Below, one piece after another: positions 22,077 through 28,759 of a DNA stretch of 64,000 nt; within the stretch, counting starts at the first letter, position 1; each line of letters opens with the position of its first letter. The position numbers and the translations under genes were made by a program. The stretch comes from Arthrobacter yangruifuii (lineage in GTDB: Bacteria; Actinomycetota; Actinomycetes; Actinomycetales; Micrococcaceae): NCBI RefSeq assembly GCF_009192775.1, contig NZ_VTFX01000001.1, forward strand, positions 992,001-1,056,000. The letters are read 5' to 3'. The notes under the pieces are model-generated. The model did not search any database and was not told where the DNA came from. It saw only the letters and a program-made list of their open reading frames with translations.

Positions 22077-23666
22077 GTGACTAATCCCGCGACAGATCCC
22101 ATTGAAGAGCGGCCCGTCCTTGTTGTGGACTACGGAGCGCAGTACGCCCAGCTGATAGCCCGGCGGGTGCGCGAAGCCGACGTCTACTCCGAGGTGGTTC
22201 CCCACACCTACAGCACCGAGCAGTTGCTCGCGAAGAACCCGGCTGCCATTATTCTCTCCGGCGGCCCCTCCAGCGTGTACGCCGAAGGCGCCCCCAAGGT
22301 CGATGCAGACCTGTTCGAGGCCGGTGTTCCGGTTTTCGGCATCTGCTACGGCTTCCAGGCCATGGCCGCGGCCATGGGTGGAAAGGTCGCGAAGACGGGG
22401 CTGCGGGAGTACGGTTCCACCGACGCACGCGCAGTCGGCGGTTCCCGGTCCATCCTCGAAGGCACCCCGGACGAGCAGAACACCTGGATGAGCCACGGCG
22501 ACAGCGTGCAGGAAGCACCCGAGGGCTTCGACGTGCTGGCCAGCACCGCCGGCGCACCGGTGGCTGCCTTCGCCAATGAGGCCAAGGGCCTCTACGGCGT
22601 GCAGTGGCACCCCGAGGTCAAGCACTCCGCCCACGGCCAGGCCGTGCTGGAGAACTTCCTGTTCAAGGGCGCCAAGCTCGAACGCAGCTGGACCACCGGC
22701 AACATTGTCGAAGAGCAGGTTGCCCGCATCCGCGCCCAGGTGGGAAACTCCCGCGTCATCTGCGGCCTGTCCGGCGGCGTCGACTCCGCCGTAGCGGCAG
22801 CACTGGTGCAGCGCGCCGTCGGGGACCAGCTGACCTGTGTCTTCGTTGACCACGGACTGCTGCGCGAAGGCGAAGCCGAGCAGGTTGAGCGCGACTTCGT
22901 GGCCGCCACCGGCGTCAACCTGTACGTGGCCAACGAGCAGGAGCGCTTCCTGTCCGCGCTGGCCGGAGTCTCCGATCCGGAGACCAAGCGGAAAATCATC
23001 GGCCGCGAATTCATCCGCGCCTTCGAAGAAGCCGAACGGGCCATCATGTCCAAGGCCGAGGCTGAAGGCGAGCCCATCCGCTTCCTGGTCCAGGGCACCC
23101 TGTACCCGGACGTGGTCGAATCAGGCGGCGGTGAGGGCGCAGCCAACATCAAGAGCCACCACAACGTGGGCGGACTGCCCGAGGACATGAAGTTTGAACT
23201 GGTGGAGCCCCTTCGGGCGCTGTTCAAGGACGAGGTCCGCGCCGTGGGCGCCGAGCTCGGACTGCCGGCCGAAATTGTCGGCCGCCAGCCGTTCCCCGGC
23301 CCCGGCCTGGGCATCCGGATTGTCGGCGACGTGACGCAGGAGCGGCTGGACCTGCTCCGCCGCGCGGACGCCATTGCCCGCGCCGAACTGACCAGCGCCG
23401 GGCTTGATGACGAGGTGTGGCAGATGCCGGTAGTGCTGCTGGCGGATGTCCGCAGCGTCGGAGTGCAGGGTGACGGGCGGACCTACGGGCACCCGATCGT
23501 GCTGCGCCCGGTATCCAGCGAAGACGCGATGACCGCTGACTGGTCCCGGCTTCCGTACGATCTGCTGGCCCGCATTTCCAACCGCATCACCAACGAAGTG
23601 GACGGAATCAACCGCGTGGTGCTGGACGTCACCAGCAAGCCGCCGGGAACAATCGAGTGGGAATAG
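22077..23666 (+). CDS. guaA: GMP synthase (glutamine-hydrolysing)
   Basis: GuaA converts XMP to GMP using glutamine nitrogen. The 529-residue protein begins with a class I glutaminase domain, nucleophile Cys90 in FGICYGFQ and the His-Glu pair in VQWHPEVKH, followed by the ATP pyrophosphatase domain with the P-loop GLSGGVDSA at residues 230-238, and ends with the dimerisation domain and the signature KPPGTIEWE. The GTG start is preceded by TATCCT at 22065-22070, leaving 6 bases, as expected of a leaderless transcript. A perfect terminator follows. No element is inserted at its 3' end, although guaA ends are a common integration site. Confidence 0.97.
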
Positions 23667-23676
23667 CGTAAAGAGG

Positions 23677-23707
23677 ACAGAGGACGGCCGTTTCGGCCGT
23701 CCTCTGT
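23677..23707 (+). terminator. Intrinsic terminator after guaA
   Basis: A perfect 14-base stem (23677-23690 with 23694-23707) with a 3-base loop is followed by TTTTGT. It begins 10 bases after the guaA stop. Confidence 0.9.
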
Positions 23708-23766
23708 TTTGTCCCCCCGCGTTGCTATGTTCGGGAAACCCGCTCCGACGCGATAGTTTTGAAGGT

Positions 23767-26700
23767 ATGCCAATTTGGTCGAGAACGCGCGGAAGTGCAG
23801 AAAAGAGGGCACTAGTGTCTGAGCAGAATACCGGGGAGAATCCCTCGGACTTCCTGCTGCCGTGGCTGGGACGATTGGGACAGCACGCCGGAACGGACAC
23901 ACTGCTCCATTTCACGCCGTCCGCAGCCAACAGTATCGACCTGACGCACGCGCATCCCTCGGGGCTGGCCCAGCTGCTTGCCGGCCGCCGCACGCGGCTG
24001 TCCACCCTGCTGCGGGATCCCGATCAGTACGGTGCCGCCATGAAGGCAGGGCGTCTGCTCCGCGCCAAGATCTACGAGCTGGGCACTGACCGCGGTATCG
24101 ACGTCGGTTACATGGCTGCCGGCACCGCGTCCTGGCGCTACGCCTCCGACGAAGCAGTGCGGCCCGAGTCCCTGACCGCACCCGTGCTGCTTACGCCCGT
24201 GGCGCTGACGGTCCACGCCTCGCAGGATGACTATGAACTGCAGCTGACCGAAAAGGCGGCACTGAATCCGGCCCTGGTCCGCCACCTGCAGCAGGAACAA
24301 GGCCTGGACATCGACGTCGAGTCCCTCACCCGCCTGGCCTACGGCACCGCCCGCTTTGATCCCCACCCCGTGCTGGAAAAGCTCCGCGCTCTCACGGGCA
24401 GCGTCCGCGGGATCAACATTGAGCACCGCCTGCTGGTTTCCACCTTCGCGGACCTGTCAGACCTCAGCGAGGATCCGGCCCTGGACCCGGCCCACCCGAT
24501 TCTCCGTGCCCTGATCGACGGCGCGCGTGACGGGGCGGCCAGTCCTGCGGAACCCGAACCGCTGGAGCTTCCTGCCCTGGACGAGCGCGACCCTGCCGAT
24601 GAACTGCTCATCCTCGACGCAGACCGGCAGCAGCAGGAAGTCCTGGACCTGATCAACGCGGGCCGGTCCCTCGTGGTGTCCGCTCCGGCCGGGACCGGCC
24701 AGACGCAGACGGCGCTCAACGCGGTGGCGGCGCTGGCCAATGCCGGCAAGTCCGTCCTGGTTGTGGCGGAACGCCGCGGCACCCTCAACCAGTTCGTTTC
24801 CGAACTGGACGCCATGCAGCTCGGTTCCCTGATCCTGCAGGTCAACGCCGGTCTCACCCAGCAGCAGCTGAAGGACCAGCTGGTCCGCGCCATCGTACGC
24901 AATGAAAAGGCTGAGGCCCCGGAACTGCAGGGCCTGCACAAGGTCCTGCTGGAAAACCGCCACCAGCTGCGCGACCACGTCAAGTCCCTGCACAACGTCC
25001 GCCGCCGCTGGGGCTGCTCTCCCTACCAGGCCATGCAGTCCCTGGCTGACCTGACCTCCATGAACCCGGCACCGGCCACCGCCGTCCGGCTCAAGCGGAG
25101 CGTCCTGGACAGCATCACGGACCGTACCGAACTGTCCGGACGCCTGCGCCGCGCGGCCGAACTCGGCAGCTTCAGCCGGGCGGCGACCACCAGTCCCTGG
25201 TACGGCGCCAAGCTGCTCAACCGCAAGGAAACGGAAGAGGCGTACACGCTGACCCAGACCCTTGCCGCGGACCTGCCGGCCCTGCGGGCCAAGGTCCAGG
25301 CCGTGGCGGAGCACTCCGAAATCCGCCTCGGTGAAACCTTCGCCCAGTGGGGCGAGCAGCTTGAACTGCTTGTGGCCGTGCGGGAAAGCCTGGACAAGTT
25401 CACCCCGGACATTTTCGACCGCCCGGTAACCGACCTGATTTCCGCAACCGCTTCGTCTTCCTGGCGGCGTGAGCGCGGCGTGGACATGAGTTCCATGACC
25501 CGTTCCCGGCTGCGGCGCGTGGCAAAGGAGTACGTCCGTCCCGGCGTGCACATTTCGGACCTGCACGCCTCCCTGGCCGAAGTCCAGCAGCAGCGTGCCG
25601 TCTGGACCCGCTACGCCACGACACAGCGCCACCCCTCGGTCCCCACCGGACTGGCCGAGATCAACCGTTCCTACCTCCTGGTCAAGGAGCAGCTGGATAC
25701 CCTCACCGGCATCCTGGCCGAGACGCCGTTCCACCCTGACCTCGCCGCCCTGCCGCTCGACGAACTCGAGAAGCAGCTCAGCCAGCTGGCCGGGGACCGG
25801 GAAACGCTGGAAACGCTGCCGGAACGGACCCTGCTGCTCGATGAAATGCGGGGACAGGGCCTGGGCGAACTGCTGGATGACCTGAGCGCACGCGAAGTCC
25901 AGCCCGGCAACGTCGGCTACGAACTGGAACTTGCCTGGTGGCAGTCCGCCCTCGAAGCCATGATCAGCGGTGATGACTACCTGGCCATGTCCGACGGCAA
26001 CAGCCTGCGCCGCCTCGAAGCCGAGTACCGCCTCGCGGACAACGCCCACATTGCCTCGGGTGCCGCGCGGCTGCGCTGGAGCCTGGCCTCACGGTGGCGC
26101 TCCGGCGTCCAGACGTCACGCGGCGCTGCCGAGGATCTGCGTGAGCTGATCAAGGAAGGCGAGCTGTCCCTGGAAAGCCTGGGCCAGCAGTCCGAGGAAC
26201 TCGTTTCCTCGCTGCTGCCGGTGTGGGCAGCCAGCCCCCTGGTGCTGTCGATGGTCCTGCCGGAACACCGACGCTTCGACACAGTGATCCTGCTTGACGC
26301 TGAATCCACCAGCCTGCAGTCCGCCGTTCCTGCGCTGGCCCGCGCTTCGCAGGTCATTGCCTTCGGCGACAACTGCCTGGGCGGACCGCGGCCCTTCACC
26401 ATCGGCGTCGAACCCGCCGCCGCTTCCCAGCACGTGGATCTGGTCAGCGCCTTCGACGCCCTGGAACGCGTGCTGCCCTCCCGCGCCCTCTCCACCGTGT
26501 ACCGGGGCACCGATAAGGCGCTGCTGCGCCAGCTCAGCGAGTCCTTCTACGGCGGCCGCCTCACCATGGTCCCGAGCGCCGATGAAGTCACCACCGGCCT
26601 CCGGTCACTGTCCGTGGAATACCTGCCCGACGGAACCGGCATGCCCAGCGCCGAGCACGAAGGCGTGGAAAGCGTCGCAGCGGAGGTCAACCGCGTGGTT

Positions 26701-27657
26701 GACCTGGTCTTCGAACACATCCGGCGCCGCCCGCACCAGTCACTCGGTGTCATTACCGCCAGCCCGCGCCACGCCGTGCGGGTGGCCGAGGCAATCCGGG
26801 TGCAGATGGCCAACTTCCCCTGGGCAGCCGATTTCTTCACGGCGAAATCCGAGTCCTTCCGGGTTGTTCCGGTGGACCGGGCCGTCGGCATGGTCCGGGA
26901 CTGCGTGATCTTCTCCCTGGGCTTCGGCCGGACCCCGCACGGCCGCGCGCTGCACAACTTCGGGCCGCTGTCGGCGCCGGACGGACGGAAGAAGTTCGTC
27001 ACCGCCATGACCCGGGCCCGCTATAAACAGCATGTGCTGACCTGCTTCCAGCCCGCGGACCTGGACCGGACACGGCTGGGCTACGGCGCCCTGGACTTCT
27101 ACGAGCTCATCAAACGTGAGCTGGAACCCCAAAGCGCCCGTGAAAAGGCTGCGGCCGCCGGGGGCATCATGGACGAAGATCCGCTGGTCGCTGACCTGGT
27201 GGGCCGCCTGCGTGAGCGCGGTGCCAAGGTCTGGGACCACTACGACAATGCCATCGACATTGTTGCCGCAGCACCCCATACCGCCGGGCCCACCGGCACT
27301 CCGGCTCCGCTGGCCATTGAATCCGACGGCACCGAACGGTACCGGGCCATGTCCGTCCGCGAACGGAGCAGGCTTTGGCCCCAGCTGCTTGAACGCCGCG
27401 GCTGGCGGTACATGCCGTTGTGGACCATTGAGGTCTTCAGCGACCCCTCCGCCTGTGCGGACCTGGTGAGCCGGTACCTCGAGCTGCCGGATCCGCCCGT
27501 GGGCCAGAAGCCCGTGCCCCGCACGGCGGACGCGGCGGAAATCGGCGGAGACCACGCCGTGGACGAGACCGTCCCGGCAACGGCGGCTCCGCATGGAAGC
27601 AGCGGGATGGGTGACCGGAGGTCGGGACCTGCCCCGCGCAGCACTGCAGGAGAGTAA
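23767..27657 (+). CDS. DUF4011-type superfamily 1 helicase-like protein with C-terminal Vsr-like nuclease domain and altered Walker A
   Basis: At about 1,296 residues this is the largest gene. The N-terminal 250 residues resemble DUF4011. The helicase core has a degenerate Walker A, SAPAGTGQTQT, where the P-loop lysine is Gln312 (codon CAG at 24700-24702). Motif II reads LLDAES (Asp844, Glu846) where homologues have DEAS, and motif III reads FGDNCLGGP where they have GDPxQLPP. The late motifs look normal, including CVIFSLGFGR and the arginine-finger motif TAMTRAR. The C-terminal 140 residues resemble the MTES_1575 Vsr-like endonuclease fold, with candidate Asp1164, Glu1185 and Asp1187. The ATG has TAGTTT 7 bases upstream (leaderless); a GTG at 23815 with AGAGGG is an alternative start. 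The small gene downstream begins 3 bases after the stop. Homologues are linked to DNA defence or repair; here ATPase activity is doubtful. Confidence 0.75.
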   Translation: MPIWSRTRGSAEKRALVSEQNTGENPSDFLLPWLGRLGQHAGTDTLLHFTPSAANSIDLTHAHPSGLAQLLAGRRTRLSTLLRDPDQYGAAMKAGRLLRAKIYELGTDRGIDVGYMAAGTASWRYASDEAVRPESLTAPVLLTPVALTVHASQDDYELQLTEKAALNPALVRHLQQEQGLDIDVESLTRLAYGTARFDPHPVLEKLRALTGSVRGINIEHRLLVSTFADLSDLSEDPALDPAHPILRALIDGARDGAASPAEPEPLELPALDERDPADELLILDADRQQQEVLDLINAGRSLVVSAPAGTGQTQTALNAVAALANAGKSVLVVAERRGTLNQFVSELDAMQLGSLILQVNAGLTQQQLKDQLVRAIVRNEKAEAPELQGLHKVLLENRHQLRDHVKSLHNVRRRWGCSPYQAMQSLADLTSMNPAPATAVRLKRSVLDSITDRTELSGRLRRAAELGSFSRAATTSPWYGAKLLNRKETEEAYTLTQTLAADLPALRAKVQAVAEHSEIRLGETFAQWGEQLELLVAVRESLDKFTPDIFDRPVTDLISATASSSWRRERGVDMSSMTRSRLRRVAKEYVRPGVHISDLHASLAEVQQQRAVWTRYATTQRHPSVPTGLAEINRSYLLVKEQLDTLTGILAETPFHPDLAALPLDELEKQLSQLAGDRETLETLPERTLLLDEMRGQGLGELLDDLSAREVQPGNVGYELELAWWQSALEAMISGDDYLAMSDGNSLRRLEAEYRLADNAHIASGAARLRWSLASRWRSGVQTSRGAAEDLRELIKEGELSLESLGQQSEELVSSLLPVWAASPLVLSMVLPEHRRFDTVILLDAESTSLQSAVPALARASQVIAFGDNCLGGPRPFTIGVEPAAASQHVDLVSAFDALERVLPSRALSTVYRGTDKALLRQLSESFYGGRLTMVPSADEVTTGLRSLSVEYLPDGTGMPSAEHEGVESVAAEVNRVVDLVFEHIRRRPHQSLGVITASPRHAVRVAEAIRVQMANFPWAADFFTAKSESFRVVPVDRAVGMVRDCVIFSLGFGRTPHGRALHNFGPLSAPDGRKKFVTAMTRARYKQHVLTCFQPADLDRTRLGYGALDFYELIKRELEPQSAREKAAAAGGIMDEDPLVADLVGRLRERGAKVWDHYDNAIDIVAAAPHTAGPTGTPAPLAIESDGTERYRAMSVRERSRLWPQLLERRGWRYMPLWTIEVFSDPSACADLVSRYLELPDPPVGQKPVPRTADAAEIGGDHAVDETVPATAAPHGSSGMGDRRSGPAPRSTAGE

Positions 27658-27660
27658 TCG

Positions 27661-27993
27661 ATGACAGAGGAACCGGTCACCGGAAAGGCCGCGGCGGAAA
27701 ATGCCGCCGCGGCCCCGGGAGTCGGGAAGGCTGCGGGGGAGAACCCCGGGGCGGAGAACCCCGGAGCGGAGAACCCCGCGGCAGCGGGGGAGGACAGGTC
27801 CCCTGATCCCGAATCCGCGGGTAAGGCGCCGGGCCGCCGGAGGCGTGGACACCGCCGGGCGGTTTCGCCGGGGACGGGTGCTGCCGGCCTGTTGCCCGTG
27901 ACCGCCAAGGAGGACGATCCCCGCGTGTGGGGTGACGCCGTCGAAGACAACGATTCCTGGCTGCGGGAGCAGCGCCCCCCGCACTGGGGATGA
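27661..27993 (+). CDS. Small disordered protein with conserved-looking PPHWG tail
   Basis: I do not recognise a named family. The 110-residue protein has a disordered N-terminal half with tandem GAENP units (about residues 30-40), a basic patch RRRRGHRR near 58-65, then an acidic C-terminal part with DDPRVWGD and a final RPPHWG. From memory, similar tails with WGD, Asn-Asp and PPHWG occur at the ends of small actinobacterial proteins encoded next to such helicases. It starts 3 bases after the helicase stop, with GGAGAG about 7 bases upstream, so the pair is cotranscribed. It may be a partner or tether for the helicase; this is inference. Confidence 0.7.
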   Translation: MTEEPVTGKAAAENAAAAPGVGKAAGENPGAENPGAENPAAAGEDRSPDPESAGKAPGRRRRGHRRAVSPGTGAAGLLPVTAKEDDPRVWGDAVEDNDSWLREQRPPHWG

Positions 27994-28024
27994 TCTGCAG
28001 GACAGGCTGCACGGCAGCGGCGCC

Positions 28025-28759
28025 TCAGCCGTCCGTCAGGACAAGATAGACGACGCCGGCCCCGGAGGCAGCCGTGAGCCGGGCGGCGTTGTCCGGGTCC
28101 GCGGCTACCACTACCAGCCCCTCGCCGGCGCCTGTGTCCGGCCACCCGACCGCTGTCTCGGAGCCGGAGACCCACAGCACCGGCACCGAGACCGCCAGGA
28201 CATCCGCACCGCCTCCGTCCGGCGCATTTCCGGCCTCGGTGCCGGTCCACGGTCCTTCGGTGCCCGCAACAACGCTGACCAGCTGACCCGGGCCGAGCAG
28301 GTCCAGGACGGACGGGTCCGCCGGGCGCAGCGGAACGGCCACGGAACCGGGCGGAGAACCGATCAGGAGCCCGGCGCCGGCGAGGGAGACTTCCGTTACG
28401 GGACTGCCCCGGAGCAGCGGGGTGGCGAGGCGCCGGCCCACCAGGGCTTCCGGATCATCGCGGGCGCCCGGCGGAACTGCCTCGGCGGGCAGGCGTGCCG
28501 TCTCCAGGCTTGCGGCAGTCAGCACCGTGCCGGCAGGCAGATCCCGGGCGGCGCGGACCACAACGGAGCGCTCTGCGGCCACGGGAACCAGGGCTTCGAC
28601 TGCTGACCCTGCAGCAGCGCAGCAGGCCAGAGCCGCCAGCAGGCGGCGGTGGCGCACAATAAAGCGCCGGACCCTCGCAGCGGGGTCGGCGGAACCGGAA
28701 GAACGGTGGAGACGGGCGGCGGAGGACAGCCGCCGGGCGGTAAAGCGGCGAAATGGCAT
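28025..28759 (-). CDS. SAF domain protein, CpaB/RcpC-like (orphan)
   Basis: The 244-residue protein has a basic N-terminus, one membrane segment (about residues 37-58, LLAALACCAAAGSAVEALV) and a SAF domain with VVVRAARDLPAGTVLTAASLE, then PPGSVAVPLRPADPSVLDLLGPGQLVSVV. This is the layout of CpaB/RcpC, the periplasmic component of Flp/Tad pilus systems. No other tad/cpa gene is in the window, so it may serve a distant pilus locus or another function. It is on the same strand as and 136 bases downstream of the FmdB-like gene; that 136-base gap shows no gene. Confidence 0.75.
   Translation of the reverse strand: MPFRRFTARRLSSAARLHRSSGSADPAARVRRFIVRHRRLLAALACCAAAGSAVEALVPVAAERSVVVRAARDLPAGTVLTAASLETARLPAEAVPPGARDDPEALVGRRLATPLLRGSPVTEVSLAGAGLLIGSPPGSVAVPLRPADPSVLDLLGPGQLVSVVAGTEGPWTGTEAGNAPDGGGADVLAVSVPVLWVSGSETAVGWPDTGAGEGLVVVAADPDNAARLTAASGAGVVYLVLTDG

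Follow-up and report, generated by a model that had tools for sequence, protein, structure and literature searches.

The helicase-like locus

The window examined here (i.e., the whole 64,000-nucleotide [nt] stretch of Arthrobacter yangruifuii contig NZ_VTFX01000001.1) contains a gene for a large UPF1-like helicase whose motor motifs are degenerate, hereafter called the pseudo-helicase, followed by a small open reading frame (ORF) whose product ends in a conserved PPHW tail. The features of the two genes, in window positions, are as follows.

23722..27657, + strand: open frame of the pseudo-helicase, with the stop codon TAA at 27655-27657
24076..24288, + strand: DUF4011 match (amino acids [aa] 104-174; Pfam PF13195, 29.5 bits, above the cutoff of 22.2)
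24691..24711, + strand: degenerate Walker A motif GTGQTQT, conserved in the family, with Q312 encoded by CAG at 24700-24702
24907..26106, + strand: mainly helical stretch of ~400 residues inside the helicase core (aa 381-780; AlphaFold2 secondary structure, boundaries approximate)
26290..26307, + strand: degenerate motif II, LLDAES where DEAS is expected
26362..26397, + strand: degenerate motif III, FGDNCLGGPRPF where GDxxQLPP is expected, with no QLPP
27001..27021, + strand: motif VI, TAMTRAR, retained
27199..27465, + strand: MTES_1575/Vsr-like nuclease domain (Pfam PF18741, 28.5 bits, below the cutoff of 38.2)
27256-27258 and 27319-27327, + strand: acidic residues D1164 and E1185..D1187, intact in the window copy
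27661..27993, + strand: small ORF of 110 aa, starting 3 nt past the helicase stop codon, with AGGAG at 27648-27652 within the helicase end
27910..27990, + strand: conserved C-terminal tail of the small ORF, EDDPRVWGD...DSWLREQRPPHWG

Degeneration of the motor motifs in the window's family

The original prediction had pointed to a P-loop Lys replaced by Gln, altered motifs II and III, and a preserved TAMTRAR, and each of these was located where it had been placed. The motifs that mark UPF1-like SF1B (superfamily 1B) helicases are absent: GTGQTQT stands in place of the Walker A Lys, LLDAES in place of the motif II DE, and FGDNCLGG in place of the motif III Gln. Families are denoted below by the labels of our genome search (f1, f2, etc.), f1 being the family of the window, which we took to be the Micrococcaceae because the named relatives are Arthrobacter and Kocuria. 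Among 88 nonidentical f1 rows, position 312 holds Gln in 75, another residue in 12, and a gap in 1. Lys, whose presence in close orthologues would have spoken against the prediction, occurs in none of them. With the window counted, Q312 is found in 76 of 89 rows, and the loop is more conserved within f1 than over the wider alignment described below. One f1 genus (g3) has largely lost the P-loop in all four of its rows (L074-L076 and L177; APGTDDIRT and similar), and two further f1 rows (L112 and L119) have Glu where the window has Gln.

The Gln codon is one base away from AAG, as expected of a strain mutation or sequencing error, but Gln in 75 of 88 rows, encoded by both CAG (68 rows) and CAA (7 rows), rules these explanations out. 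A decaying gene is likewise ruled out by a ratio of nonsynonymous to synonymous substitution rates (dN/dS) of about 0.1, and the gene was present without internal stops in all 29 genomes of the genus in a protein search. We give this group of explanations next to no weight.

Purifying selection acts on the pseudo-helicase. Against five congeners, overall dN/dS was 0.08-0.11, and by segment it was 0.01-0.03 in the DUF4011 region, 0.02-0.04 around the P-loop, 0.03-0.14 in the nuclease domain, and 0.4-0.7 in the disordered C terminus; the check over the motifs that the original prediction had proposed thus returned constraint on the P-loop segment. In an alignment of 107 rows (96 from the order and 11 from f25, f38, and f45), the Lys column ranked at the 21st percentile of conservation, the motif II Glu at the 43rd, and the nuclease E1185 at the 48th, versus the 95th percentile or above for scattered W, G, H, P, F, and D positions. 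The catalytic sites therefore drift while the frame of the protein is kept.

The predicted structure retains the UPF1-like SF1B core. AlphaFold2 modeled aa 41-1240 with a mean predicted local distance difference test (pLDDT) score of 91.9 and a predicted template modeling score of 0.83, and the model resembles Dna2, IGHMBP2, UPF1, and senataxin. The protein differs from UPF1, IGHMBP2, and Dna2 in the lack of the ATP motifs, in the large helical stretch within its core, and in its C-terminal Vsr-like domain. A helicase fold, lost motor motifs, and conservation across a clade are what define a pseudohelicase, and all three are found here.

Repeated loss of the motor across the order

Motor loss extends well beyond f1. 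Among 176 aligned rows, the Lys position holds K in only 8 (2 in f5, 5 in f17, and 1 in f45). It is G in all 13 f19 rows, R in all 14 f38 rows, A or N in f6, and A in f7 and in the three f14 rows bearing a residue; V, T, S, L, or others occur elsewhere, and in several families the loop is unrecognizable. Of 130 tree orthologues, all 8 with Lys also have DEAS, as do none of the remaining 122. In a FastTree phylogeny of 139 sequences (9 outgroup paralogues, 114 order rows, and 16 from f25, f38, and f45, with the motif columns excluded), the Lys-bearing sequences lie near the base and in f5/f17. Under irreversible loss, four events are needed, also after weak nodes are collapsed. The phylogeny comes from a single method and a single alignment, and some of its deep nodes are weak; f1 was thinned to 51 rows, and 31 loci (fragments, second copies, and nonorthologous pieces) were excluded, so that f10, f12, and f16 are absent. 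Duplicates L049-L063 were excluded from the tables. Motor loss thus appears to be a clade-wide, repeated character, with at least four losses inferred, and as judged from the motifs it is well supported. The original prediction of an intact, selected protein that has lost normal ATPase function holds at this level, motif II DEAS having gone as well, and ATP hydrolysis is probably absent.

A divergent but still active ATPase, in which Gln or another residue substitutes for Lys in nucleotide binding, would fit the good conservation of the rest of the f1 loop (PPGTGQTQTxxN, with T315 and G309 in the top 8% of positions) and the motif VI arginines, most of which remain in f1. Every tree orthologue without Lys, however, is also without DEAS, and other families have G, A, R, V, or T at this site or, in some cases, no loop at all. 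We consider such activity very unlikely.

A probable core gene rather than mobile cargo

In protein searches, the gene was present in all 197 genomes of the family (32 genera; some as fragments, one genome with a weak match only) and in 193 of 198 genomes of the order, incomplete assemblies being among the five misses. Matches occurred in 53 of 197 class genomes, many of the weak ones being longer paralogues. Plasmid records gave 108 matches, one covering 80% of the query, and phage records gave one, with 25% identity over 57% of the query. A mobile defense gene is not favored by these matches or by the near-universality and synteny of the gene in the sampled genomes. Two congeners (G025 and G027) carry an additional distant relative with a longer open frame of >2100 aa, which is probably a Lys-bearing, ProA-like paralogue.

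The protein shares its domain order (DUF4011-helicase-nuclease) with the antiphage proteins ProA, Hhe, and PDC-S37 and is homologous to them by profile. It could be a vertically inherited member of this group that still defends by recognition rather than by its motor. It scores 328.5 bits against ProA (NF058533), 136.8 bits against Hhe (NF042953), and 357 bits against the PADLOC model PDC-S37 (E = 5.9e-107; best stretch, aa 597-1236; no curated cutoff given), and three intact orthologues reach 777-869 bits against ProA. The ProA and Hhe scores of the window protein are far under the curated equivalog cutoffs of 1500 for ProA and 2000 for Hhe, and the gene is near-universal and syntenic, unlike mobile defense genes. 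A DUF4011 gene of P. aeruginosa is described in PMC10250203 as forming a core flank of a defense hotspot and not its variable cargo. The nine outgroup paralogues differ from the pseudo-helicase: they are longer (1690-2433 aa), all nine have Lys, DEAS, and Q(L/M)PP, and none of the nine has the PPHW tail. Two of them were scanned against the antiphage families; L208 passes the ProA cutoff at 1731.6 bits, and L203 fails it at 1172.4. On balance, a defensive role has a small chance of being correct.

A small protein with a PPHW tail beside or fused to the pseudo-helicase

Outside the coordinates of the original prediction lies the neighboring PPHW-tail ORF, which has been fused to the helicase repeatedly. 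The ORF at 27661-27993 terminates in EDDPRVWGDAVEDNDSWLREQRPPHWG. Among the 124 tree orthologues with enough flank to be tested (6 of the 130 have too little), 110 have the tail, 80 in a separate downstream ORF and 30 as the C terminus of the helicase itself; fusions were seen in f1, f9, f13, f15, f17, and f18. The tail was defined as PPH[WYHF] near an ORF end, which makes PPH invariant by construction, and weak tail-profile matches at some f3, f4, f6, and f8 loci were counted as tail-less (i.e., the stricter count). The full 193-locus table lists 106 separate, 49 fused, 20 without a tail, and 18 with too little flank, but it holds 16 genes twice and counts three near-identical congeners in full; we therefore relied on the nonredundant tree counts. 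For 35 of these 80 separate tail ORFs, the earliest possible start overlaps with the stop codon of the helicase. Genes that fuse repeatedly classically encode proteins that associate, from which we infer that the helicase and the tail protein do so physically.

None of the small tail proteins tested is covered by a Pfam or NCBIfam family; a TonB NCBIfam match of one of them was dismissed as chance-like (E = 0.13; 12 bits versus a cutoff of 315). A search of the window's own genome for PPHW[G/E/D]-stop, the only tail ending searched, gave one match, versus one for the reversed control pattern.

The tail protein is distributed more widely than its link to the helicase. A 52-tail profile matched 153 of 246 class genomes, once each in the rows shown, and 9 of 149 genomes in a phylum sample, all nine of the same class. 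At 20 of these tail loci that were inspected, the ORF was often 45-80 aa. At 14 of these 20, inspection of the sequence placed an MscL-like frame nearby, usually convergent and downstream, and SAF-like and FmdB-like frames often followed farther on; the mscL and SAF identities are backed by annotation in Actinomyces oris. At L254, in a family without a linked helicase, the tail ORF follows two-component-system-like, serine-protease-like, and MoaB-like frames, an arrangement that resembles the mycobacterial mprAB-pepD-moaB2 cluster.

The orthologue in A. oris (NZ_CP116225.1; L265) is annotated as a "DNA helicase" and has the P-loop PPGSDVAGT. It is followed by a "hypothetical protein" ending in SNDARLRRDVPPHWG and then by a convergent mscL. 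This record is a 415-kb "plasmid" with core-type genes (mscL, glp, 5-FCL, and the pseudo-helicase) and may be a misfiled piece of chromosome. In the window, a SAF-domain gene lies directly 3' of the tail ORF (27993-28025), the place where mscL intervenes in A. oris. Eleven other families of the order have a cluster of mostly convergent ORFs there, and f1 does not; the cluster is presumably mscL, which may have departed from this place in the window's family.

The nuclease domain

The original prediction had also proposed that the protein keeps a nuclease role, and this part is only weakly supported. A nuclease positioned on DNA by a dead helicase, with cutting as the retained function, would be in keeping with D1164, E1185, and D1187 in the window copy, with D1187 in 130 of 130 orthologues, and with the low dN/dS of the domain. 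Yet E1185 is retained in only 72 and D1164 in only 63 of the 130 orthologues while the gene itself is kept, and E1185 was lost 15 times on the rooted tree (once in the outgroup and several times within the window's own family). The domain also scores below the Pfam cutoff in the window copy, a cutoff that two intact orthologues pass at 71.2 and 121.6 bits. A drifting Glu beside a conserved Asp would be more in line with a structural role than with catalysis throughout the order. Nuclease retention, to judge from these residues, is not the common thread, and we regard cutting as an unlikely account of the gene's retention.

Gene start and upstream region

The pseudo-helicase has 1296 aa if numbered from ATG 23767, the start used in the original prediction. 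An in-frame GTG at 23815, with AAGAGG upstream at 23803-23808, is a likely alternative; both options are left standing because the leader is shared almost base for base among near relatives. This leader (23720-23815) is nearly invariant at the nucleotide level in six congeners, versus a synonymous divergence of about 0.4-0.7 for the gene (five pairs), and may hold a promoter or regulatory element. Upstream lies guaA (22077-23666; GATase and GMP_synt_C matches), followed at 23678-23712 by a perfect inverted repeat of ~13 bases and TTTT (found by eye), which is a likely terminator.

Inactivated helicases in other systems

The closest parallels are helicases that lost their motor and stayed. AddB and RecC, which belong to complexes that resect DNA breaks, have an SF1 fold without motor motifs, as here (excerpts of PMC4824097 and PMC1185551). 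DNA is scanned by inactivated helicase domains according to the former, and RecC has a nuclease-like domain without catalytic residues according to the latter. These proteins are UvrD-like, have RecB-type nuclease domains, and work with an active partner subunit. The window protein, in contrast, is UPF1-like, has a DUF4011 region, a Vsr-like domain, and a small PPHW neighbor, and no active subunit is known for it. PriA of Deinococcus radiodurans is likewise a conserved helicase whose motifs disappeared in one bacterial clade although the gene persisted, and PMC4504706 describes DNA binding without ATPase activity and evidence of an interaction with DnaB. PriA is of a different family and has a known role in replication restart, and the loss in the pseudo-helicase is a repeated one.

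Searches of the literature returned nothing for PDC-S37, for ProA in combination with four other terms, or for MTES-1575 in this hyphenated spelling. The matches listed held no related title for PPHW and nothing relevant for a degenerate Walker A in actinobacteria or an essential Bifidobacterium helicase. No description of a pseudo-helicase/PPHW system was found in the literature searched, subscription papers being outside its scope.

A proposed platform in place of a motor

Our preferred reading, to which we assign a probability of about 0.6, is that the gene encodes a core-genome pseudo-helicase (UPF1-like SF1B, DUF4011-helicase-MTES_1575) whose motor has been erased and which forms a structural platform with the PPHW-tail protein. 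Its present role would be that of a scaffold and not an engine. In the most likely mechanism, the former helicase core serves as a platform for nucleic acid or protein, and it either displays the PPHW tail or is regulated by it. The old helicase groove may bind nucleic acid, by analogy with AddB, RecC, and the Deinococcus PriA. Translational coupling to and physical contact with the tail protein would underlie the partnership, the small protein is a likely and so far undescribed partner, and the function would be housekeeping rather than mobile defense.

Several observations weigh against this reading. The tail also occurs in genomes without a helicase-search match (e.g., G397, G399, G403 to G408, and G411); since it is class-wide, the helicase cannot be its sole partner. 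No tail was found nearby in 14 of the 124 testable orthologues. Most f38 tail ORFs lie 700-950 nt from the helicase, with an intervening ORF at the sole f38 locus inspected (L260). In f25 and f45, the one genome each that was seen to hold both has them on separate contigs, and the helicase-tail link may therefore be particular to the order and f38. The motor is complete in eight orthologues (2 in f5, 5 in f17, and 1 in f45), two of which have a fused tail; the motor is thus not useless everywhere, and the partnership does not need a dead one. Gln in a P-loop does not necessarily abolish nucleotide binding. Finally, a model of a natural fusion gave a pLDDT of only 57-61 for the tail and 32-39 for the linker, with no confident docking.

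A wider proposal, which we offer tentatively and at less than even odds, is that an order-wide actinobacterial machine has gone unrecognized. In it, the pseudo-helicase would serve a class-wide small protein as a nucleic-acid or protein platform, and the conserved PPH(W) C terminus of that small protein would dock on a conserved target. The motor would have been dropped on four or more occasions, since the selected job would be platform plus tail and not ATP hydrolysis. If so, the few families retaining motor and tail alike would be a natural control.

A protein of ~1300 residues in nearly every sampled genome of the order is likely filed as a helicase, as in A. oris, though its motifs speak against this in most families. 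Because one gene offers the stages intact, Q, G, A, R, and erased, what a helicase does without its motor becomes directly testable. Pseudohelicases are a known kind of protein, and the system around this one is potentially new. The class-wide PPHW protein, which no Pfam or NCBIfam model matched, may open an unstudied core function.

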